Positions 2,023-50,300 of a DNA stretch of 64,000 bases are shown in pieces. This DNA is from Collinsella tanakaei. GTDB lineage: Bacteria; Actinomycetota; Coriobacteriia; Coriobacteriales; Coriobacteriaceae. The position numbers and the translations under genes are program-made. The stretch is from contig NZ_JACJKB010000002.1 in the NCBI RefSeq assembly GCF_016900375.1, forward strand, positions 1 to 64,000, read 5' to 3'. Each line of letters starts with the position of its first letter. The stretch's first letter is position 1. A model generated the notes under the pieces. The model was given only the letters and a program-made list of their open reading frames with translations. It was not told where the DNA came from and did no database searches.

Positions 2023-5000
2023 CTAGGCGTTGCGGTTGTTGTTCAGGGCATCCTCAAAGTCCTTGAGGTCGTCCGTGAACTTCTTGCGGTGGATGACCGC
2101 GCCCACGAAGTAGATGGCGCTGGCAACCAGACCCACGACCATGACCCAGTGCACCCAGCAGCTGCGATGTTCTGCGTTGGTGAGCGGAGTCTCGTCGTCC
2201 TCGATGGTCTCGCCGCTAGCCAGCGGGGTGTCATCGTCGGCGATGGTCTCCTCCTCGACGGGAGCCGGGGTCTCGTCGGCATCCGGGGTATCACCGTCGC
2301 CCGTGGTGGTCGTTGTGATACCCGTGCCAGGCGTACCGGTGGTACCGGTCGGCGTGGTGCCGCCGGGGGTCGTACCGCCACCCGTGGCGCCGCCGCCCGT
2401 AGTGCCGCCACCGTCGCCCGGGGTCACCGGGGTCGGAGTCGGGGTGGGCGTGGGAGTCGGGGTGTCGGGAGTGTCCGGGGTATCCGGCGTGTCGGGGGTA
2501 TCCGGCGTGTCCGGAGTGTCGGGTTCGTCGGTGCTGGGGTTGTCAGGCTCGTCCGTAGGATCGTCCGGGTCGGTCGGCGGGTTACTGGGATCGTCATCCT
2601 CCTCGCCGCCGCCGGGGATTTCGGGATCCTTCTCGTCGTCATCGTCGTCGGTGTTCCCACCGCCGCCACCGCCGGGGTTGTTGAGCGTCCAAGTGCCCTC
2701 GAACACAACGTCGTTTGCCGGCATCTTGAAGGAGCCCTCGGCAACAATGGCATCATCCGTCGACCAGCCGCTGAAGGTGTAGCCCGGTGCCGTCGCGGCG
2801 GCGGCCACATCCACATCGGCGCCGTACTTGTAGGTCGTCTCGGTGGGCAGACCGCTTGCGCCCGCGGGGGCCTCGCCGTAGTCGTAGGTCACCTTGTAGG
2901 AGTTGCGCTCGTAGTAGACCTTGAGGACGAGCCCGCCGTCGCCGGTGATGGTGCCCTCGAGGACGTTGCCCCCGTTGTCGGAATCGAAGGTGAAGCCATC
3001 GTAGGACACGGAGGTGTCGGCATTGACGGTCTCGCCCGTGGTGCCCTCGGTCTCGGCGTCCGTGTAGGTGGCCTTCTCGGGGTAGGTCCCGTCGAGGTTC
3101 TGCAGGTAGCGCTCGACCGTGTACTTAGTATCCGTGTTGGCGGTCCAGGTTCCCGTGATCGTAACGGCCTTCGCCGGCATCTGGAAGGAGCCCTCGGAGA
3201 CGGAGGCGTCCTTCGTCGACCAGCCGCTGAAGGTGTAGCCGGGTGCCTTCGCGTCGGCGGCCACGGTCACGGTCTCGCCGTACTTGTGCGTGCCATCTGC
3301 GGGCAGCTCGCTTGCGCCCGCGGGGGCCTCGCCGTAGTCGTAGGTCACCTTGTAGGAGTTGCGCTCGTAGTAGACCTTGAGGACGACTTCGTTGTCAGCA
3401 GTGATGGTCTTCTCGAGAACATTGTTCGCGTTATCTCCATCGAAGGTGAATCCCTCGAAGGACACAGAGGTATCGGCTGTAGCGATCTTACCAGCTACGC
3501 CCTTTCTACCGTCCTTATGCGAAGCATCCACAGGATAGCTGCCGTCGAGGTTCTGGAGATAGTACTCGACCTCGTACCACGCCCACACCTCTTCGTAATA
3601 AGCGTAGTAATCCCTGTCCTCCACTATCTGCTCATCGGAGAATTGCGCCAGCTGCGCGCACTCCTCATCTGTGTACCAACCGCAAAGCGTATAGACAGTC
3701 CCGTTGGCTTCAATCGTTTTTGGAAGCGCCTCTTCCTCAGGCTTAATCTCTTCTGGCCTAGTAAGTTCATTTTCCAAAGAGCCGCTCTCAACTCGGACAG
3801 AATAGTCAGGCTGAATCTCAAAATCATCAGCCTCGGGCATCCTGACTCGCCAAGTAACGTTGCAATAGTCCGTATCGTTCAGGAAAATCTGCCCATCGTA
3901 ATGGAAGGTCGGTGTGCCGTTCGGGATAACAGGATTGTAATTGTTGTTGCCGGCATTGGCCCCATCTGCCGCAACCAGACGGAACCACTCTATCGTGTAA
4001 TAACCCTTCTTGTTTTCATTCTCCGAACCAGGCTCGGCATGTTTATAAGTTTCCCCGTCAACAGTAATGTCAGGATAGCCGTTCGGGAAGGTTACGCTAA
4101 CGTCCTCTCCACTGAGATTGACACTGTTTACCTCATAAAATCCCGGCTCCCTGAGGCCCTCTACCGATCCAACGCCCATGCCGTTCCAAATCTGATTGGG
4201 AGCGGCTCCGCTGTTAATATCAGCACCAGGAATTAGCGTATAGAAATAGACGGGGTAGACACCATCAATCGGCTCCCATGAACCGACGAACTTCACGTCA
4301 TCAGCAGGCATTTCAAAGGTGGTGTCTGAGACAGTAGTGTCTTCAGTCTTCCAACCGCTGAAGGTGTAGGCGGGGGCTGTCGCGGCGGCGGCCACGGTCA
4401 CGATCTCGCCGTACTTGTATGTACCGCTATCAGGCAACGCACTTGCGCCCGCGGGGGCCTCGCCGTAGTCGTAGGTCACCTTGTAGGAGTTGCGCTCGTA
4501 GTAGACCTCGAGGACAAGCTCGCCGTCGCCGGTGATGGTGCCCTCGAGGACGTTTTTCTCGTTATCCTTATCGAAGGTAAAGCCCTCGTAGGACACGGAG
4601 GTGTCGGCCTTGGCGGTCTCGCCCGTGGTGCCCTTGGTCTCGGCGTCCGTGTAGGCGGCCTTCTCGGGATAGGACCCGTCGAGGTTCTGCAGGTAGCGCT
4701 CGACCGTGTACTTGGTGTCCTTCTTGGCAGTCCACTTTCCCGTGATCTTGACGGTGTCCGCCGGCATCTGGAACGAGCCCTCGGAGACGGAGGCGTCCTC
4801 CGTCGACCAGCCGCTGAAGGTGTAGCCCTCGAGGATCGGATCGCCAGCCACGGTCACGGTCTCGCCGTATTTGCGCTCAGCCGTGGCCGGCACCGAGGGA
4901 GCGCCTTTGGGCACGTCCCCCTCGTAGCTGTAGCTCACTTCGTAGGAGTTGCGCTCGTAGAAAATATCAACAACGCTATCTCCTCCAGCTTTAATAATCA

Positions 5001-39915: not shown

Positions 39916-41157
39916 TCAGTACCCGAGCGCCTGAAGCACGAACATGACCACCGTAAGCACGGTGATGATGACGATCGTGGCCCAGGTGAGCACGTTCCAC
40001 AGGCGACCGTTGCGGTAGACGCCCATGATGTGCTTGTCCTGCGCGATGAAGAGCAAAAAGACGAGAAGCACGGGCAGCAGCACGCCGTTGATGACCTGTG
40101 CGCTCATCATGATCTGGAACAGGTCGACGCCGGGCATGATCACGAGCAGCGCCGAGGCCACGATAATCGCCGTGATGATGCCGCGGTAGACCGGCGCCTC
40201 CTCCCAGCTGCGGTCGGCGCCGCGCTCCCAGCCGAAGGCCTCGCAGATGGCGCTCGACGTCACGCCGGGCAGCACGCAGGCGGCCAAGAAGCTCGCCGCC
40301 ACGAGGCCGGAGGCGAACAGGATCGTCGAGAACTCGCCGGCGATGGGCTCGAGCGCCAGCGCCGCGTCGGCAGCGTCGGACACCTGGATGCCCGCGGGAT
40401 AGAGCACCGCGCCGGTCGTGACCACGATGAACCACGCGACGGCGCAGGCGATGACCGAGCCGCTCGCGGTGTCGATGCGCTGCAGGACGATGCCGCTTTC
40501 GTCCACGTTCTTGTCGACCACGTTGTTCTGCGCCAGAAAGACCATCCACGGCGCGATGGTGGTGCCGATCGTCGCCACGAGCAGGCTCACGTACTCGGGC
40601 TCGGCCACGATGTGCGGCGACACCGTGGAGGCCGCTACCTGCCCCCAGTCGGGGCCGGCCAGAAACGCCGCGACCACGTAGGTCACGAACACGCAGCTGA
40701 CCATGAGCAGGATCTTCTCGATGCGGCGGAAGCTCCCCGACATGGTGAGCATCCAGATGAGCAGGGCCACCAGCGGCACCGATACCGTCTTGGGCACGCC
40801 GAACAGCGCAAGGCCGCTCGCGATGCCCGCGAACTCCGAGATGGTGACCGCCGTGTTGGCGATGAGCAGCGCACCCATGGCGAGCGCGCTCTTGCGCACG
40901 CCGAAGCGCTCGCGAATCAGCGAGGCGAAGCCCTTGCCCGTCACGCAGCCGCAGCGCGCGGCCGTCTCCTGCACCACGATGAGCAGCACCGCCATGAGCG
41001 GCAGCATCCACAGCGTGCCGTAGCCGTAGCTCGCGCCGGCGCTCGAATACGTGGCGATGCCGCCCGCGTCGTTGCCCGACAGCGCGGCGAGCAGGCCGGG
41101 GCCCATGGCGCCAAGCACCATCCCCGCCGTCAGTTTTTCATGCGTTCCTCGTGCCAT
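39916..41157 (-). CDS. NRAMP-related transporter, magnesium (NRMT) type
   Basis: The product has 413 residues with about eleven spans and the NRAMP fold. In canonical NRAMPs, span 1 has DPGN and span 6 has MPH. Here they read DAGG (in LSGNDAGGIATY) and APW (in GTTIAPWMVFLA), so the Asn is replaced by Gly and the metal-selecting Met by Ala. This pattern is known from NRAMP-related magnesium transporters, including one characterised in Eggerthella lenta, which accept the hydrated Mg2+ ion. It starts 18 bp past the stop of the MgtE-N/CBS gene, so the two are cotranscribed, which supports magnesium as substrate. Confidence 0.85.
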   Translation of the reverse strand: MARGTHEKLTAGMVLGAMGPGLLAALSGNDAGGIATYSSAGASYGYGTLWMLPLMAVLLIVVQETAARCGCVTGKGFASLIRERFGVRKSALAMGALLIANTAVTISEFAGIASGLALFGVPKTVSVPLVALLIWMLTMSGSFRRIEKILLMVSCVFVTYVVAAFLAGPDWGQVAASTVSPHIVAEPEYVSLLVATIGTTIAPWMVFLAQNNVVDKNVDESGIVLQRIDTASGSVIACAVAWFIVVTTGAVLYPAGIQVSDAADAALALEPIAGEFSTILFASGLVAASFLAACVLPGVTSSAICEAFGWERGADRSWEEAPVYRGIITAIIVASALLVIMPGVDLFQIMMSAQVINGVLLPVLLVFLLFIAQDKHIMGVYRNGRLWNVLTWATIVIITVLTVVMFVLQALGY

Positions 41158-41175
41158 GATGCAGCCCCGCGAACC

Positions 41176-43062
41176 CTACGCCGCCATCCAGACGACGACC
41201 AGCGCCGATGCGACCGAATACACCACGCAGGAGGCGAACACGGCCGACACGCTCATCGCGATACCCGAGGTGTTGAGGTCGTGCTCATCGCGCCAGAACA
41301 GCAGCTTGAGGTAGATGACGGACAGGGCGCAGCAGGCGAAGGTGACCGCCGCGGCGCAGCCGAAGCAGCCCGAGAGCAGCTGCGCGTGGAGCGCCGACGT
41401 CGCGTTGGCGGCGCTGACGCCCTCGGTGAGTACCGGAATGCCGTCCGGGTACGCGGCGCCCAAAACGAGCTGGCCGCACAGGTAGATGACGACCGCCATG
41501 ATCGCGCCGACGAACACGGTCTGGAGGAAGAACGCCAGGTACGGCTTGTCCTCGTCGTCGGACTCGTCGTACTCGAGGTAGTAGTTGCGCACGAACGACA
41601 CCACGCGGCTCGATGCGAGCAGCACGACGGGCATCACGCACATCGGGTAGATGAACAGGTCGGCGAAGCCGCCCATCATCTCGAGCGCCGCCGCGACGAT
41701 GCCCGAGGCGATGGCCCAGATGAGCAGCCAGTATTGGCGGCGCGCGAACCACGAGAACACGTGCATCGACTCGCCCGAGCCGCCCTCGGAGCTGCCGACG
41801 CCGGCGATCTGGAGGTCCTCCTGGTGCTCCTCGTTCATGACCTCCATGGCGTCGTCGACCGTGACGATGCCCAGGATGTGGCGGTTCTCGTCGCACACGG
41901 GCATGGCGGCGAGGTTGTACTTGGACATCTCCTCGGCCACGTCCTCCTGGTCCTCGTCGGGCGAGACCCAGACGACGTCGCGGTACGCAAGGCTGTTCAG
42001 ACGCGCATCGCGGTCGGCCACGATGAGCGCGCGCAGCGACAGCACGCCGGTAAGGCAGCCGGCGGGATCGGTCGTGTAGACGTAGTAGACGCTTTCGAAG
42101 TCCTCGTCGAGCTTCTTCAGGCCCTCGATGGCGTCGTTGACCGTAGCGGTTGCGGGCAGCGCCACGAACTCCGAGGTCATGATGCGGCCGGCGGTGTTCT
42201 CCTCGTAGCCCAGCAGCGTACGGATGGCGCGCTCCTCCTTGACGCCCATGAGGCGCAGGAGCTTCTCGGCTTTCTCGTAATCGAGCTCCTCGATGAGCGC
42301 GGCGGCGTCATCGGGGTCCATGAGGGCGAGCATCGAGGACGCGTCGCGGTCGGACAGGCCCTCGAGCATCTCGGCCACGAGTTCGTCGTCATCGAACTCG
42401 CTGATGGCCTCGGCCGCCTGCGCCGTGTCGAGCTGCGCGAACACCTGGCCGCGCAGGCGCGGGTCGAGCTGCTCGATGATGTCGGCGATGTCGGCCGGGT
42501 GCAGCTCGCCGAGCGTCTTGTGCGACACGGACAGCTTGATGTTCTGGGTCGAGCGCTCGAGCAGGTCCATGTACGACCAGGCGATGATCTCCTCGGGCAT
42601 CGGCTTGCCGATGGCGCGGGCCGCGCCGACCACCACGCGCTCGAGCGCAGGATGCAGCGAGCGCAGAAGGCCGCGCATGCCGACCTCGGCGCCCAGCAGA
42701 CGCAGCTGGTTTTCGCCCGAGGTTGAAAGCTTGATGTCATTCACGCGCACGACCTTCATGCCCTGCGTGTCGACGATCTGCTTGTTCATGATGTCGCGCG
42801 CGAGCAGGACCTCGTCGGGCTGCAGGTACGAGAAGCGGATGTCGGTTGCCGGCACCTTGAGGTACACGCCGGTGTCGTCGATGTGGTCGACGTACTTGCG
42901 CCACGAGATCATGAAAGGCGTCTTGCCCGGGCCCTGGAAGGCCAACGACGTCACATGGGGAAAGACCTCGCCCGTGGCGATGCCCATGTCGTTGACGATG
43001 CCGATGCTCTCGCCCGTCGAGTCGACAACGGGAAGCTTCAGCATCTCGGAAAGGTAATTCAT
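41176..43062 (-). CDS. MgtE-N/CBS magnesium-sensing membrane protein
   Basis: The product has 628 residues, with GAAGGAG before the ATG. In order it has a PRC-barrel-like segment (1-110), an MgtE_N helical superhelix (about 170-290; GELHPADIADIIEQL, MDPDDAAALIEEL), and two CBS motifs (about 300-425; ALPATATVNDAIEGL, VVWVSPDEDQEDVAEEM). A C-terminal membrane region of about five spans follows. MgtE_N and CBS domains sense cytosolic Mg2+. The membrane part does not show the usual MgtE pore motif PLL...GNAGSQ, so it may be a degenerate or different channel, or a regulator of the adjacent NRMT transporter. Confidence 0.8.
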   Translation of the reverse strand: MNYLSEMLKLPVVDSTGESIGIVNDMGIATGEVFPHVTSLAFQGPGKTPFMISWRKYVDHIDDTGVYLKVPATDIRFSYLQPDEVLLARDIMNKQIVDTQGMKVVRVNDIKLSTSGENQLRLLGAEVGMRGLLRSLHPALERVVVGAARAIGKPMPEEIIAWSYMDLLERSTQNIKLSVSHKTLGELHPADIADIIEQLDPRLRGQVFAQLDTAQAAEAISEFDDDELVAEMLEGLSDRDASSMLALMDPDDAAALIEELDYEKAEKLLRLMGVKEERAIRTLLGYEENTAGRIMTSEFVALPATATVNDAIEGLKKLDEDFESVYYVYTTDPAGCLTGVLSLRALIVADRDARLNSLAYRDVVWVSPDEDQEDVAEEMSKYNLAAMPVCDENRHILGIVTVDDAMEVMNEEHQEDLQIAGVGSSEGGSGESMHVFSWFARRQYWLLIWAIASGIVAAALEMMGGFADLFIYPMCVMPVVLLASSRVVSFVRNYYLEYDESDDEDKPYLAFFLQTVFVGAIMAVVIYLCGQLVLGAAYPDGIPVLTEGVSAANATSALHAQLLSGCFGCAAAVTFACCALSVIYLKLLFWRDEHDLNTSGIAMSVSAVFASCVVYSVASALVVVWMAA

Positions 43063-43197
43063 GGTGCTCCTTCAGAGAATGAGAGGCTTGTGGCAGCGCG
43101 AAACCCCGGCGCGCGCCATATTGAAGGGCACCCGCAGGGGTTAGCTACTGTGTGGTCGGGGTTTAGGTTTCACCTGTGTCCTTTTCTCAAGTCGATG

Positions 43198-43228
43198 CAA
43201 AAGAAGAGCCCGATCGGAATCGAGCTCT
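43198..43228 (-). terminator. Terminator after the deacetylase gene
   Basis: A 9-bp stem with one G-T pair (43205-43213 with 43220-43228) is followed on the minus strand by TCTTTT. It separates the deacetylase transcript from the mgtE-like leader. Confidence 0.75.
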
Positions 43229-43284
43229 CCTATTCTATAGCATTTTCGGCAGCGATACGCCCGACACCCGCCCTCTCCGGGTCG

Positions 43285-43339
43285 GCCTCCGCGCCTGGCC
43301 TCCTGCGGCTACGTCCCCAGAGAGGCCAGGCGCGGAGGC
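43285..43339. repeat. CTACGTCCCCA-family hairpin
   Basis: Perfect 18-bp arms (GCCTCCGCGCCTGGCCTC and complement) enclose a loop with GCGGCTACGTCCCCAGA. Here only one side of the inner core is kept. It lies between the two leftward operons. Confidence 0.85.
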
Positions 43340-43425
43340 AGCCGGGGTCGCCCAAGGGGGCCGGAGGCAGAGGGACCGGGCGCCCAAGGGGCCGGAAAGA
43401 GGCCGGGCGGGACTGCGTTGCGTCT

Positions 43426-45270
43426 CTACACCTCGGGCAGGACGGCGTCTTCGGGCATCTTCACGGTGCCGTTGACGACATCCTCGGGGAAGCGGCCGTC
43501 GAGCTCCATGAGCTCGGACACGGTCACGAGCTCGTAGCCATCGGCCTGCAGGCCCTCGATGATGCCGGGGAGCGCCTCGACGTCCTGCGAGCGGTTGCCG
43601 CCGCCGTCGTGCATGAGGGCGATCGCGCCGTTATAGGCGTTAGAGAGGACCTCGCTCGTGATGGCGCCGGAGCCGGGAAGCTTCCAGTCGAGCGTGTCGA
43701 TGTTCCACAGCACGTTGCAGCTGATAAGGTCGCCGGAGCGGGCCCACTCGGTCGCCGTGAACGCGCCGTAGGGGGCACGGATCATCTGGGGACGCTCGCC
43801 CGTGGCGTCCTCGAGGGCGTCGAACGCGGTCGAGATCTCGGAGCGCAGCGTGTCGCGGTCGCACTCGGGCAGGTTCTGGTGCGCGTTGGTGTGGCTCGCG
43901 AGCTCGCAGCCGGCGTCGAGCACGGACTGACTCTTGGAATTAACCTGCGTGCCGAGGTTGAAGAACGTCGCCTTGACCCCGTAGCGCTGGAGGATATCGA
44001 GGATGTCCTGGGTGTAGGAGCTCGGACCGTCATCGAAGGTGAGCGCGATGTACTTCTTGCTGCCCTTCGGCTTGCAGTTGAGGTAGGACACCACCATGTC
44101 AACCGGGGCCTCGACGACCTCCTTGTCGACCGTCTCGCCGGACTTCTCGCCCGTCAGAACGGTCTTCTTGCCCTTCTTGCCCCACTGCGAGACGAACTGG
44201 ATGGCGCCGGTGCCCTCCGTCTGGATACCGGGCATGAGGTCGACCGTCTCCTCGGTGGCGGGCTCGGTGACGTCGGCGCCGTTCGCCACGGTGAGGTCGA
44301 TGGCATCGACGGCCTTCGTGGTCTCGAACTGATCGGCCGTGAGCGGAGCGCCGTCGCTCGTGACGGCGCAGCGGTCTCCGCCCTGCTCGTCGAGGACGTT
44401 GCCGCCCACCGACAGCATGCGGCCCGGCTTCACGCCGAAGTAATCGTTGGCGACGAGCAGCTCCTGCACGTTCGACGAGATGGGCGTGGCGTAGGCGCGG
44501 CCGTTGACCATGACGTCGACGTTGCGCCAGAAGAACTGGTAGCCGATGGCGAGCGACGCGCCGCCCACGACCACCACGGCCGCGACCAGGGCGATCAGGA
44601 TGCTGCGCGGGCTGAAACTGCGCGCGGAGGTCCGGCGGCGTGCGGGAGCCGCGGGCCTGACCGCCGTGCGCGTGCGAGCGGTGCCGGCGGCGTGAGGGGC
44701 GCCAGCCGTACGGGCGGATGCGGATGCCTGGGCGCGCGACCCGGCCGGGGCCGCCGTCGAGGTACGGCGCGTCTGCTGAGTAGCGCCGGTGTGCGTGCGC
44801 GGGGTCGACGCGGTGGCAGAGGCCCCCGTCGTGCGCGTGCGGGTAGCACGCTGCTGCGCCGTGCCCGCATGGCCCTGGGGACGGGAGAACGACTGCGTGA
44901 CATGGGCGGACCCGCCGTGGGAGGCGGGCGCCTTGCGCATCTTCGGGTGCTCGATCGGCTTGAAGGACTGCGTGCTGTAGGCGGGGATCTTGATGCGCCC
45001 GGTCTGCTGCGCGCTGCGCGGCGTCGCCTTCTGCGACGTGCTCGTCGCAACGCGACCCGTCTGGCCGGCAGGACGAGCCGTGCCCTGCTTGCGCTGTGCG
45101 GACTGAGCCGCGTTTTGAGCCGCTTTCTGGGAAGCCGCTTTCTTCACGGGCTTCTGCACCGGCTTCTGCGCGACCTTGCGCGCCGGCTGCTGGGCCGGCT
45201 TCTGCGCCGTCTTTTTCACAGGCTCCTGGGCGCTCGCGGGGCGCTGGGTGCCATGGCTATTGGTATCCAT
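43426..45270 (-). CDS. Membrane-anchored polysaccharide deacetylase (NodB type)
   Basis: The product has 614 residues. The first 205 residues are a Lys/Ala/Gln/Thr-rich basic tail, probably cytoplasmic, then one span (ILIALVAAVVVVGGASLAIG), a beta-rich stalk with ELLVANDYFGVKPG, and a NodB domain. Catalytic motifs are intact: TFDDGP, SHTNAHQN (H...H), RAPYG, DTLDW and LMHDGG. It would remove N-acetyl groups from peptidoglycan or another wall glycan in a metal-dependent way. A diverged paralogue lies just upstream in the same direction. Confidence 0.9.
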   Translation of the reverse strand: MDTNSHGTQRPASAQEPVKKTAQKPAQQPARKVAQKPVQKPVKKAASQKAAQNAAQSAQRKQGTARPAGQTGRVATSTSQKATPRSAQQTGRIKIPAYSTQSFKPIEHPKMRKAPASHGGSAHVTQSFSRPQGHAGTAQQRATRTRTTGASATASTPRTHTGATQQTRRTSTAAPAGSRAQASASARTAGAPHAAGTARTRTAVRPAAPARRRTSARSFSPRSILIALVAAVVVVGGASLAIGYQFFWRNVDVMVNGRAYATPISSNVQELLVANDYFGVKPGRMLSVGGNVLDEQGGDRCAVTSDGAPLTADQFETTKAVDAIDLTVANGADVTEPATEETVDLMPGIQTEGTGAIQFVSQWGKKGKKTVLTGEKSGETVDKEVVEAPVDMVVSYLNCKPKGSKKYIALTFDDGPSSYTQDILDILQRYGVKATFFNLGTQVNSKSQSVLDAGCELASHTNAHQNLPECDRDTLRSEISTAFDALEDATGERPQMIRAPYGAFTATEWARSGDLISCNVLWNIDTLDWKLPGSGAITSEVLSNAYNGAIALMHDGGGNRSQDVEALPGIIEGLQADGYELVTVSELMELDGRFPEDVVNGTVKMPEDAVLPEV

Positions 45271-45371: not shown

Positions 45372-46760
45372 TTATTCCTCGATCTGCTCCTCCTCAGGGG
45401 CCAGTTGAGGCAAAACGGCGTTATCCGGCTTCGAAACCTTGGAGACGTCGAGTTTCTCCGCAAGCTCTTCATCGGTATCGACAAGTTGTGACAGCGTCAC
45501 GATCTCGTATCCGTCCTGCTTGAGGCCCTCGATGATGCGGGGCAGCGCCTCGACGGTCTGCGATCCGCACTCCTCGCTGTCGGTCAGCAGGATGATGTTG
45601 CCGTTGCTCACGGAGCCCACCACGTTCTCCACGACGGCGTCGGCGCCGGGCAGCAGGTAGTCGCCCGAGTCGAGGTTCCAGGTGACCACCGCGCTCACGA
45701 GGTCCATCGCCTGCGCCCAATCGGCATCGGAGAACAGGCCGTAGGGCGGGCGCAGCAGGCTGCACGATTCGCCCGTCGCCTGCGAGATGACCTCGAAGCC
45801 CTGGGTGAGCTGCTGGCGCAGCTCGTCACCCGAAAGCTCGCTTAAATCCGTATCGCTATAGGAGTTCGACCCGACCTCGCAGCCCGCCTGCACGATCTGG
45901 CGCGCCGTGGCCTGGTTGGCCTCCACGTGATCACCCTGCAGGAAGAACGTGGCGGACACGCCCTCCTCTTCCAGAATCTGCAGAATCTCGCCGGTGTAGC
46001 TGCTCGGCGCCTCGTCGAAGGTCAGCGCGACGTACTTGCCCTCGGCCGGCGCCACCGACGTCATGCGCACGACGCAGTTTTGCGCCTCCTGCACCACGCC
46101 ACGGTCTGCCGTCTTGCCCGAAACGCGGCCGGTCCACACCTCGGAGCGGCCCATCACGCCCCAGGTCTCCACGTAGCCGATGGCGCCGGTGCCCTTGACC
46201 TCGAGGGTGGGCTGGATATCGGTCGCCACGATCTCGTGCTCCTCGTATTGGTCGCGGCCACCGGAAATCTCGACCTGCTCGCCACCGACGAGCTCGGTGG
46301 TCTCGAGGGCATTCGCCTCGATCTGCTGGCCATCGACCACGACTGAGTACTGCTCGCCGCCGCGCTTCTCGAGCACGCTGTCGTCCACCGCGAGCAGGTC
46401 GCCCGCGCGGTAATCGAGCTCCTGGTCGTTGATGAGCTGCTGGACGCTCGAGTGGATGCGCACCGAGACGTCGGAGCCGTTGAGCGACACCGTGACGCCG
46501 CGGTTGATGTACCACACGACGCTCGCCACGAACAGCAGGGCCGCGCAGGCCACGGCGATGATCGCATAGGGCCGGCGCTTGTTGTTGCGACGCGCGCGCT
46601 GGGCCATGCCGCGACGGCCGAACCCCTGCGAGTGATGCAGGTACTGGGCGCCGGGCTTGCGCTGCACACGGCGGTTCACAGACGGCAGATGGGTGGCGTC
46701 ACCGCGCCTGATATGGGGCTTCTTGGGCTTTTTGGAATAGGAGGTGGTGTAGTTGGGCAA
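45372..46760 (-). CDS. Deacetylase paralogue with lost catalytic residues
   Basis: The product has 462 residues from TTG 46760, with GAGGGAG five bases upstream; no ATG start in frame has a ribosome site. The layout matches the downstream paralogue: basic tail, span, stalk, NodB fold. But key motifs are changed. TFDDGP is TFDEAP, the metal-binding SHTNAH is SNSYSD with both His lost, and LMHDGG is LLTDSE. RPPYG is kept. It is therefore probably a non-enzymatic glycan-binding or regulatory partner of the active enzyme. The frame is fully open, so it is not a decayed pseudogene. Confidence 0.88.
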   Translation of the reverse strand: MPNYTTSYSKKPKKPHIRRGDATHLPSVNRRVQRKPGAQYLHHSQGFGRRGMAQRARRNNKRRPYAIIAVACAALLFVASVVWYINRGVTVSLNGSDVSVRIHSSVQQLINDQELDYRAGDLLAVDDSVLEKRGGEQYSVVVDGQQIEANALETTELVGGEQVEISGGRDQYEEHEIVATDIQPTLEVKGTGAIGYVETWGVMGRSEVWTGRVSGKTADRGVVQEAQNCVVRMTSVAPAEGKYVALTFDEAPSSYTGEILQILEEEGVSATFFLQGDHVEANQATARQIVQAGCEVGSNSYSDTDLSELSGDELRQQLTQGFEVISQATGESCSLLRPPYGLFSDADWAQAMDLVSAVVTWNLDSGDYLLPGADAVVENVVGSVSNGNIILLTDSEECGSQTVEALPRIIEGLKQDGYEIVTLSQLVDTDEELAEKLDVSKVSKPDNAVLPQLAPEEEQIEE

Positions 46761-46810
46761 TGGTTCTCCCTCATCCGCATTGTTGAGGAAAACTGTACCA
46801 TAAGGCGAAA

Positions 46811-46866
46811 AACGAAGGGGCGCCTGCATGCGAGCGGCACTGAATCGCCGACATGCAGGCGCCCCC
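46811..46866 (-). terminator. Terminator after the PRC-barrel gene
   Basis: A 15-bp stem AGGGGCGCCTGCATG with its complement encloses a 21-nt loop and is followed on the minus strand by a T-rich TTCGTTTTTC. It lies about 50 bp past the stop of the PRC-barrel gene. Confidence 0.8.
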
Positions 46867-46916
46867 TGAACGTTTGCGCCAAACCGGTTGCGCACCCCTT
46901 GTTGCGGGCCGATGCG

Positions 46917-47672
46917 CTACCGGCTCTTCTTCTTGGATGAGCCCGCCGCCTTGCGGTACTCGCTGGCAAATGCCGAGAACATGCCGCGCGTCTTGCCCAG
47001 CTGCTTGCCCAGAGCGCGGCTGCCCTTGTCGAGCGCCTTGGAGCCGTGCTCGTCGATCTTGGCGGCACCCTTCTTGACCTTGTCGCCGATCACGACGCTC
47101 GCCTCGGCCGCCTTGGCCGCGGCGCCGCCGGTCAACTCGAGGTTCAGCGTGTCGTCCGACACGATCATGGCGCCGTTGCGGTAGCCCTTGAGGTAGCTCA
47201 CCGGCATCTCGATATTGCCTACCAGAAGCGACGAGGCACCGCCGCCATCGAGCACGAAGCGCTTGACCTCGCCCGTCTTGCTGTTGAACATGGCGTCGGA
47301 ACAGTAGCCCAGGTTCTTGCCGGACTCCGTGACGACATCCATGCCCGTCCAGATAAGGCAGGTGTCGAGGTCCACACCGAGGCGCTTGGCGGCTCCGGCG
47401 TCAAGGTTCTCCTTGCCGTCGCGCACGCAGAGCACGCCCTCGTACACATCGAGGGCGTCGAGCGCCACGAAGCGGTCGGACTGCTTGATCATGCCCGCCA
47501 CGTCGGGGAGCTTCACCATAAACCCCACGACCTTCTTGCCCGTGGGGTCGAATACGGCGAAATGCACCTTGCCCAGCCTGCGGGGCTCGCGCGGCGTGCC
47601 GTCCTTGTTGGTTGCCTTGCGGTCTGAGGGCGCACGGTAGATCCGCACGCCCTGGATATCGCCTACGAGCAT
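46917..47672 (-). CDS. PRC-barrel domain protein
   Basis: The product has 251 residues. Two PRC-barrel-like halves are seen: GKVHFAVFDPTGKKVVGFMV near residue 35 and YCSDAMFNSKTGEVKRFVLD near 125. A basic Lys/Ala-rich tail follows. PRC barrels bind other proteins or RNA and occur in photosynthetic H subunits and RimM. The start codon directly follows the TAA of the YtxH-like gene (TAAATG), so the two are coupled. The actual role is unknown. A PRC-like segment also opens the MgtE-N protein nearby. Confidence 0.75.
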   Translation of the reverse strand: MLVGDIQGVRIYRAPSDRKATNKDGTPREPRRLGKVHFAVFDPTGKKVVGFMVKLPDVAGMIKQSDRFVALDALDVYEGVLCVRDGKENLDAGAAKRLGVDLDTCLIWTGMDVVTESGKNLGYCSDAMFNSKTGEVKRFVLDGGGASSLLVGNIEMPVSYLKGYRNGAMIVSDDTLNLELTGGAAAKAAEASVVIGDKVKKGAAKIDEHGSKALDKGSRALGKQLGKTRGMFSAFASEYRKAAGSSKKKSR

Positions 47673-48962: not shown

Positions 48963-50300
48963 CTATGCCCTCTCGTCCTCGTCGCCGTCCTTCGCGGGCG
49001 CGGCCTTCTCCTCCGGATCGGGACCGGTCACGCGCACCAGGGAGATGCGCTGACCACGCATGGACTGCACCTTGAACTTGTACCCGTCCTGCTCGAACAC
49101 CTCACCGATGGCGGGCACGGAATCGCACAGGTCCAAGATCCAGCCGGCGAGGGTCTCGTAGTCGTCGCTCTCCTCGATGGGCCAGCCGAGCTCGATAGCA
49201 TCATCGCACGAAAAGCGTCCGTCCACCAACCATTCGCGGCGCGAAAGGCGGGTGAGGTACTTGTTATCGGGGTCGAACTCGTCCTCGATCTCGCCCACGA
49301 ACTCCTCGACGATGTCCTCGATGGTGATGATACCCGCGGTTCCACCGTACTCGTCAACCACCACAACCATCTGCTCATGGGCGGTCTGCATCTCGGAGAG
49401 CAACGGCAGGATGTCCTTGGTGTCGGGCACGAAGGTGGCATCGCGCAGGAAGTCGCCGACCGGCGCGGTGCCGTTGCCGCTGAGCGCGGGCTTGATGAGA
49501 TCCTTGATGTGCGCGATGCCCACGATGCAATCCTGGTCCTCGCGGTAGATCGGCATGCGGGAGAAGCCGGTCTCGCGCATGGTGGAGAGGACCGACATGA
49601 TGTCGTCGCCCTCCTCGCACATCGTCACGTCGACGCGCGGGACCATGACCTCGCGGGCCACGGCATCGCCCAGGTCGAAGACCTCGTGGATGATGCGCTT
49701 CTCCTCGTCGAGCAGGGTGTCCTGCTCGCTGATCATGTACTTGATCTCCTCCTCGGAGACGTTCTGACGGTCGTCGGCACTCTTGATGCCGAGCAGCTTG
49801 GAGAGGCCGTTGGCCGAGGCCTGCGTAAGCCACACGAGCGGCTTGGCGAACTTGCGGAACGCGCTGATGGGGCCGGCGACCGACTTGGCCATGCCCTCGG
49901 CGTCGGACAGGCCGATGCGCTTGGGCACGAGCTCGCCGATGACGATGGACAGGTAGGACACGATGAGCGTGATGACGATCGGCGCGGCGATGGGCGCGAT
50001 GGCCGTCAGCGGCTCCAGGCCGAACGACGAGAGCCACGTGGCCAGCGGGTCGGACAGCGTGTTGGACGAGACGGTTGCCGAGAAGAAGCCCACGAGCGTG
50101 ATGGCAACCTGGATGGTGGCCAAGAAGTCCGTGGAATCGGTCGAGAGCTCGAGCGCCTTGGCGGCACGCTTATCGCCCTCCTCGGCGTCGTGCTCGAGGC
50201 TTGCGCGCTTCGCGGTTGTGAGGGCCATCTCCGACATGGAGAAGTAGCCGTTCAGGATCGTGAGGAGCAGCGTGGCGATGATGGAAATTGCTATGCCCAT
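48963..50300 (-). CDS. CNNM/CorC (HlyC)-type membrane protein with CBS pair
   Basis: The product has 445 residues. The N-terminal domain has four spans of the DUF21/CNNM type (LNGYFSMSEMALTTAKR, IVIGELVPKRIGL). Two CBS motifs follow (about 215-335; VPRVDVTMCEEGDDI, VDEYGGTAGIITIEDIVEE) and a C-terminal CorC/HlyC domain (DGRFSCDDAIELGW, QDGYKFKV). Such proteins act in Mg2+ or Co2+ export or related ion handling. They are often called hemolysin-like by old annotation. Confidence 0.92.
   Translation of the reverse strand: MGIAISIIATLLLTILNGYFSMSEMALTTAKRASLEHDAEEGDKRAAKALELSTDSTDFLATIQVAITLVGFFSATVSSNTLSDPLATWLSSFGLEPLTAIAPIAAPIVITLIVSYLSIVIGELVPKRIGLSDAEGMAKSVAGPISAFRKFAKPLVWLTQASANGLSKLLGIKSADDRQNVSEEEIKYMISEQDTLLDEEKRIIHEVFDLGDAVAREVMVPRVDVTMCEEGDDIMSVLSTMRETGFSRMPIYREDQDCIVGIAHIKDLIKPALSGNGTAPVGDFLRDATFVPDTKDILPLLSEMQTAHEQMVVVVDEYGGTAGIITIEDIVEEFVGEIEDEFDPDNKYLTRLSRREWLVDGRFSCDDAIELGWPIEESDDYETLAGWILDLCDSVPAIGEVFEQDGYKFKVQSMRGQRISLVRVTGPDPEEKAAPAKDGDEDERA

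Follow-up and report, generated by a model that had tools for sequence, protein, structure and literature searches.

The window, a stretch of 64,000 nucleotides from Collinsella tanakaei, carries on its minus strand a two-gene operon whose both open reading frames were confirmed. The first gene (41176..43062) encodes a 628-residue protein, hereafter the partner, in which sequence, domain search and structural model define PRC barrels, an MgtE N domain, two CBS domains and five transmembrane (TM) helices of a pseudo-MgtE. The second gene, on the same strand (39916..41157), encodes a 413-residue transporter of the Nramp-related Mg2+ transporter (NRMT) type. The spacer from the partner stop codon to the NRMT start codon spans 18 nt (41158..41175), the median gap in the 91 linked loci fetched from relatives being 24 nt. 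A sequence-only reading had proposed that an NRMT is paired here with an MgtE_N/CBS protein, and the domain matches described below bear this out.

Two polysaccharide deacetylase genes in tandem (43426-45270 and 45372-46895, minus strand) lie directly upstream of the pair, and similar genes flank the partner in a genome where the NRMT is missing (G170, locus L044). A separate PRC-barrel protein is encoded near the sensor module (46917-47672, minus strand). The same strand also carries, some 6 kb further upstream than the partner-NRMT pair, the gene of a CNNM/CorC-type membrane protein with a CBS pair (48963-50300; PF01595, PF03471); members of this family have been linked to Mg2+ transport. 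Searches of the whole genome to which the window belongs returned two CorA genes and one further NRAMP gene, no match to the MgtE pore profile PF01769, and no MgtA above the family cut-off.

The transporter and the partner's Mg2+ sensor

The transporter matches PF01566 (E 4e-85). Among solved structures, the closest is EleNRMT (PDB 7qia; 500 bits, E 4.8e-149 over residues 13-412), the next-best PDB chain scoring 105 bits, and within the PF01566 fold family its sequence places it closest to EleNRMT rather than to MntH. The ion-site motif of helix 1 reads D30-A-G-G33 (DxxG; 41059..41070, minus strand) and that of helix 6 reads T199-T-I-A202 (TxxA; 40552..40563, minus strand), followed by Pro and Trp. 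Both stretches align column for column with EleNRMT, including the replacement of the first histidine of the proton pathway in helix 6b by the tryptophan of APW204. DxxG and TxxA are the published signature that defines Mg2+-transporting NRMTs, and TxxA/T together with the His-to-Trp change has been described for helix 6 (PMC8806188). The DAGG and APW motifs, which the sequence-only reading had pointed out in place of DPGN and MPH, are therefore present but not odd: given the published signature and the EleNRMT alignment, we rejected the idea of aberrant transporter motifs. By its sequence, the protein is typical of the NRMT clade and is predicted to transport Mg2+.

EleNRMT has been purified alone, is unstable in detergent in that state, and transports in liposomes (PMC8806188); the NrmT of C. 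acetobutylicum rescues growth without its partner (PMC4072509). Since these two transporters work alone, NRMT transport probably does not depend on the partner. At five other loci (L104, L105, L108, L110, L111), NRMT relatives of 526-564 residues stand beside divergent soluble partners and have about 100 extra C-terminal residues, which are hydrophobic in L108.

The partner begins with a beta region (residues 1-161; 42580..43062, minus strand) in which two stretches match the PRC-barrel profile PF05239 (4e-8), a match missed in the sequence-only reading; the model is mostly beta there, with pLDDT mostly above 90. The MgtE N domain follows (residues 181-284; 42211..42522, minus strand; PF03448, 2.2e-24), and then a CBS pair with a plug helix (residues 291-419; 41806..42192, minus strand; PF00571, 3.2e-20). 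Superposed on 8gpv, the N domain and CBS pair gave a VIA Z of 26.5 over 242 residues. D251 and D404 correspond to D91 (site Mg4) and D247 of Thermus thermophilus MgtE, the pair that bridges the N and CBS domains, and both are conserved in every sequence aligned to that protein. On the plug helix, E412 corresponds to E255; E415 and D416, the equivalents of E258 and D259, are present in all membrane forms paired with an NRMT (61/61) and missing from most soluble ones. The equivalents of D95, D226 and D250 vary among partners and are A, N and E, respectively, in the window partner (P0002); this protein has therefore not kept every MgtE Mg2+ site, with Ala at D95 and Asn at D226.

Conservation is uneven along the partner. 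Between families, identity to the window protein is 53-72% in the cytosolic part and 12-29% in the membrane part, and the PRC barrels are the most conserved part of the module when it is linked to a transporter. Relative to the N and CBS domains, PRC conservation was lower in five f9 genomes and in G170, and not clearly so in G225, the low P value being inflated by relatedness. With PurA as yardstick, conservation of the partner was low in G225 and mildly low in G170; branch ratios on a fixed tree gave no clean split between partners with and without NRMT. Faster evolution of the partner after loss of the NRMT is thus only suggestive as a sign of contact, and the decay of the PRC region in two of three NRMT-less lineages, a weak test, hints that this region may be the docking part.

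The membrane part of the partner

The C-terminal part of the partner (residues 436-628; 41179..41757, minus strand) is a stretch of about 190 hydrophobic residues in which a profile search found no PF01769 match at E<1. In an alignment with true MgtE, its five helices come in the identical order. The GGNxGxQ motif of TM2 and the TM5 aspartate (D432 in T. thermophilus), present in 4/4 true MgtE proteins aligned, are absent from the window partner and from every membrane-type relative. The D432 site is needed for conduction by MgtE, and its mutation abolishes conduction (PMC5882242). The earlier statement that the partner has no recognisable MgtE pore motif was therefore correct.

Profile comparison with hhalign linked the Coriobacteriia membrane part to true MgtE over all five helices in order (95.4%, E 1.7e-8), as well as to the corresponding region of partners from other Actinomycetota (98.4%, E 4.5e-15), a region that in turn matched MgtE (99.5%, E 2.9e-23). 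PF01769 scores form a gradient, from 61 bits in L083 through 38 and 32 bits in L087 and L088 to none in the window partner; the NRMT-paired L093, L096 and L060 score 20.6 to 26.2 bits, below the cut-off. An AlphaFold model of the membrane part alone (pLDDT 95.2, pTM 0.88) had as its best Foldseek matches the MgtE TM structures 4u9n and 4u9l (probability 1.00, E 0.037), and aligned to the MgtE TM structure over 160 residues with 11% identity (VIA Z 12.3, rmsd 4.1). The full-length model (pLDDT 87.7) matched MgtE over 415 residues (Z 25.8, rmsd 4.8). Profiles and models thus identify this region as an MgtE pore domain that has degenerated while keeping fold and helix order; it is not an unknown kind of membrane part, and a new membrane fold was rejected on the same comparisons.

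In the membrane domains of 56 Coriobacteriia partners, the only residues that never or hardly ever change are two invariant Trp and one nearly invariant Pro, all in the first two helices; none of the charged or polar residues is among them. Fast drift of the membrane part against a slowly evolving cytosolic part fits an anchor rather than a pore. By homology, the C-terminus of the partner would lie outside the cell and the N-terminus of the NRMT inside.

Distribution, riboswitches and change of transporter

To define how often the two genes travel together, we used the 91 fetched linked loci and a multi-phylum set of 80 loci obtained from a scan of GTDB genomes over many phyla. The partner lies directly upstream of the NRMT on the same strand in 153/153 linked loci (91/91 fetched and 62/62 of the multi-phylum set). 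Those 62 are the multi-phylum loci, out of 80, with an NRMT directly downstream on the same strand, and 5 of the remaining 18 end at a contig edge. Counting strong matches in a class-wide search, 236 Coriobacteriia genomes have both genes, nine the partner only, three the NRMT only and 48 neither. The pair therefore recurs well outside the window, and partner and NRMT are associated far beyond chance. Within Coriobacteriia, many of whose members live in the gut, the membrane form is widespread, and soluble forms occur in many phyla. Among other Actinomycetota with an unlinked partner, an NRMT is found elsewhere in the genome in 17/18.

At eleven such actinobacterial loci (L087-L092, L094, L095, L113, L115, L121), a membrane-type partner sits away from the NRMT in an unrelated but conserved cluster with an FHA protein, a MerR-type regulator, a carboxypeptidase-like gene and hpt, names that were assigned by eye. 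One of the nine partner-only Coriobacteriia genomes, G225 (L043), has an intact partner and no NRMT match, no MgtA above the cut-off and no PF01769 match.

M-box riboswitches (RF00380) were detected upstream of the operon at seven Coriobacteriia loci with the membrane form, from several families (L060, L050, L053, L057, L063, L064, L065), and at four loci of other groups with the soluble form (L098, L148, L201, L204), with scores of 113-151 bits, or 161-163 bits for a tandem pair. This pair, in a Pelosinus metagenome-assembled genome (L201), occupies 3778-3955 and 4096-4267 upstream of the partner-NRMT operon. The window itself has no M-box, a permissive search of 43000-43500 giving only low-scoring, chance-like matches, and none was found in three Coriobacteriales loci (L034, L038, L041). 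M-box control is a trait of some NRMTs and no requirement for NRMT membership.

The module was also found with another transporter. In two Actinomycetota genomes, PRC-MgtE_N-CBS forms the N-terminal part of a 1317-residue protein and is followed there by an MgtA-type Mg2+ ATPase (L085, 2778-6731; L086, 3090-7043), which scores 1099 and 1077 bits against TIGR01524 (cut-off 611). In L124 and L125, a soluble module of 412 residues lies about 24 nt behind mgtA, in genomes with no NRMT match. The NRMT-less genomes that have a partner, G225 apart, contain an MgtA above the cut-off. Since the module is linked to MgtA in two lineages, and genomes that have it without an NRMT, G225 excepted, have MgtA, it follows Mg2+ importers and not the NRMT alone. 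A PRC-barrel gene adjoins the module-MgtA operon in the f10 genome of L124 (676-1425), and sequence similarity identifies a look-alike in L125 (2070-2888).

In a partner tree built by a quick method and rooted on MgtE, the MgtA-fused and MgtA-linked modules branch at two distinct points within the membrane-type clade, and the soluble forms of the Eggerthellaceae type at a third. The topology suggests an ancestral membrane domain that disappeared at least three times in the course of this clade's history, in addition to the pan-phylum soluble clade, a reading that depends on the root.

Proposed role and known systems

We propose, with a probability of roughly 0.6, that the partner is an MgtE-derived, Mg2+-sensing regulatory subunit that restrains the NRMT by contact when cell Mg2+ is high, and that can be exchanged between importers. 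The partner would descend from an MgtE channel. Of that channel it would have kept the cytosolic sensor, an N domain and a CBS pair whose binding of intracellular Mg2+ makes MgtE close. Having lost the selectivity motif and the essential aspartate of the pore, its membrane part would serve as an anchor or interaction platform. At high cytosolic Mg2+, the ion would bridge the N and CBS domains at the D251-D404 site, the sensor would change shape as in MgtE, and contact between sensor and NRMT, perhaps through the PRC region, would slow or stop Mg2+ entry; at low Mg2+, this restraint would be released. Regulation would thus take the form of inhibition. The proposal draws on observed features (the domain architecture, the missing pore residues, the N-CBS Mg2+ sites still in place, the fixed gene order, the co-occurrence of unlinked genes, the M-boxes of relatives and the exchange to MgtA), from which contact, the inhibitory sign and docking through the PRC region are inferred. 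The sensor would be exchangeable, being soluble in many phyla and having moved to MgtA in two lineages, as a neighbour in the operon in one and fused to its N-terminus in the other. Since it is fused to MgtA in nature, an action on the transporter itself is predicted. The broader version of this proposal, in which PRC-MgtE_N-CBS is an exchangeable Mg2+ feedback subunit for unrelated importers (NRMT and MgtA) and, in Actinomycetota, a pore-dead MgtE turned membrane regulator, we rate at even odds. If true, a channel that gave up its pore and kept its gate would be a clear case of a pseudo-channel that regulates, acting as a brake on a different transporter.

Several observations weigh against a regulatory subunit: growth rescue in B. 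subtilis was unchanged by a soluble partner (see below), nine Coriobacteriia genomes have the partner only, one actinobacterial clade has it unlinked, the window lacks an M-box, and Mg2+ sites are altered in P0002. We therefore considered three other explanations. The partner could be a Mg2+ sensor acting away from the transporter, for example by buffering or chaperoning Mg2+ in the cytosol or by signalling through nucleotides bound at its CBS pair, with the pairing reflecting nothing but shared Mg2+-dependent expression. A metal-chaperoning role is among those put forward by Shin et al. (PMC4072509), M-box control would explain the co-expression, and the CBS pairs of MgtE are described as binding ATP (PMC5529423). 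Fusion to MgtA and a fixed adjacent order with two unrelated Mg2+ importers point instead to action on the transporter itself, and we consider the off-transporter explanation unlikely. Slightly less probable still is a role of the partner in the assembly, folding or membrane insertion of the NRMT, with its PRC and TM parts forming a scaffold and no function that depends on Mg2+. The detergent instability of EleNRMT purified alone and the PRC barrels being the best-conserved part of paired proteins agree with such a role, but a pure scaffold would not need the invariant D251 and D404 Mg2+ sites, and NRMTs work without a partner in heterologous hosts. Finally, it is improbable that the partner still conducts Mg2+, as a divergent MgtE with a changed pore motif that is co-transcribed as a second Mg2+ route. 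In favour of a channel, most Coriobacteriia retain the membrane domain with its MgtE fold, basal lineages share a replacement motif (LRxAED, or AQD then S) where GGN would stand, the plug-helix sites E415 and D416 persist and nine genomes keep the partner without an NRMT. Transport by the partner on its own is made less likely by the loss of the pore residues throughout the membrane-type partners, by the lack of any invariant charged or polar residue in the 56 membrane domains, and by the outright loss of the membrane domain at least three times while the link to NRMT or MgtA stayed.

A regulatory subunit of the NRMT therefore remains the best-supported reading, as the sequence-only reading had anticipated; its claim of a new two-part system does not hold, since such a system was proposed in 2014 for the soluble form (PMC4072509). 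Shin et al. noted that most NrmT genes have an MgtE-N-like gene as neighbour, suggested feedback regulation or metal chaperoning for its product, and found this product not to be required for transport in their assays (PMC4072509). In B. subtilis, co-expression of the soluble partner with the NrmT of A. capsulatum left rescue unchanged, in a setting where the transporter seemed to carry Mn2+ (PMC4072509). The window pair shares with the published NrmT/NRMT systems (PMC4072509, PMC8806188) the transporter clade, the ion-site signature and the adjacent gene, with an M-box in relatives. The pairing itself is thus already known, and our case is a variant of a known, uncharacterised pair.

The published NrmT partner consists of the cytoplasmic part only (PMC4072509), whereas the window partner also has PRC barrels and, as its membrane domain, a degenerate MgtE pore domain of five helices. 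With MgtE of T. thermophilus (PDB 2zy9, 4u9l), the partner has in common the N domain, the CBS pair, the plug helix, the order and fold of the five TM helices and the D91/D247 equivalents; it differs by the extra PRC region, the loss of GGNxGxQ and of the pore Asp432, the absence of a PF01769 match and its operon with an NRMT. Searches of the open-access literature yielded no publication that describes the membrane form or the fusion with MgtA, and the NrmT/NRMT papers found there do not contain the exchange to MgtA. Besides the fixed gene order in all linked loci, the repeated change to a soluble form and the M-boxes before membrane-type operons, two things are new here. One is the degenerate MgtE membrane form of the NRMT partner. 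The other is the natural exchange of the sensor from NRMT to the MgtA/MgtB P-type Mg2+ ATPase (TIGR01524), which is unrelated to NRMT and has the same sensor module, linked or fused, in two lineages.
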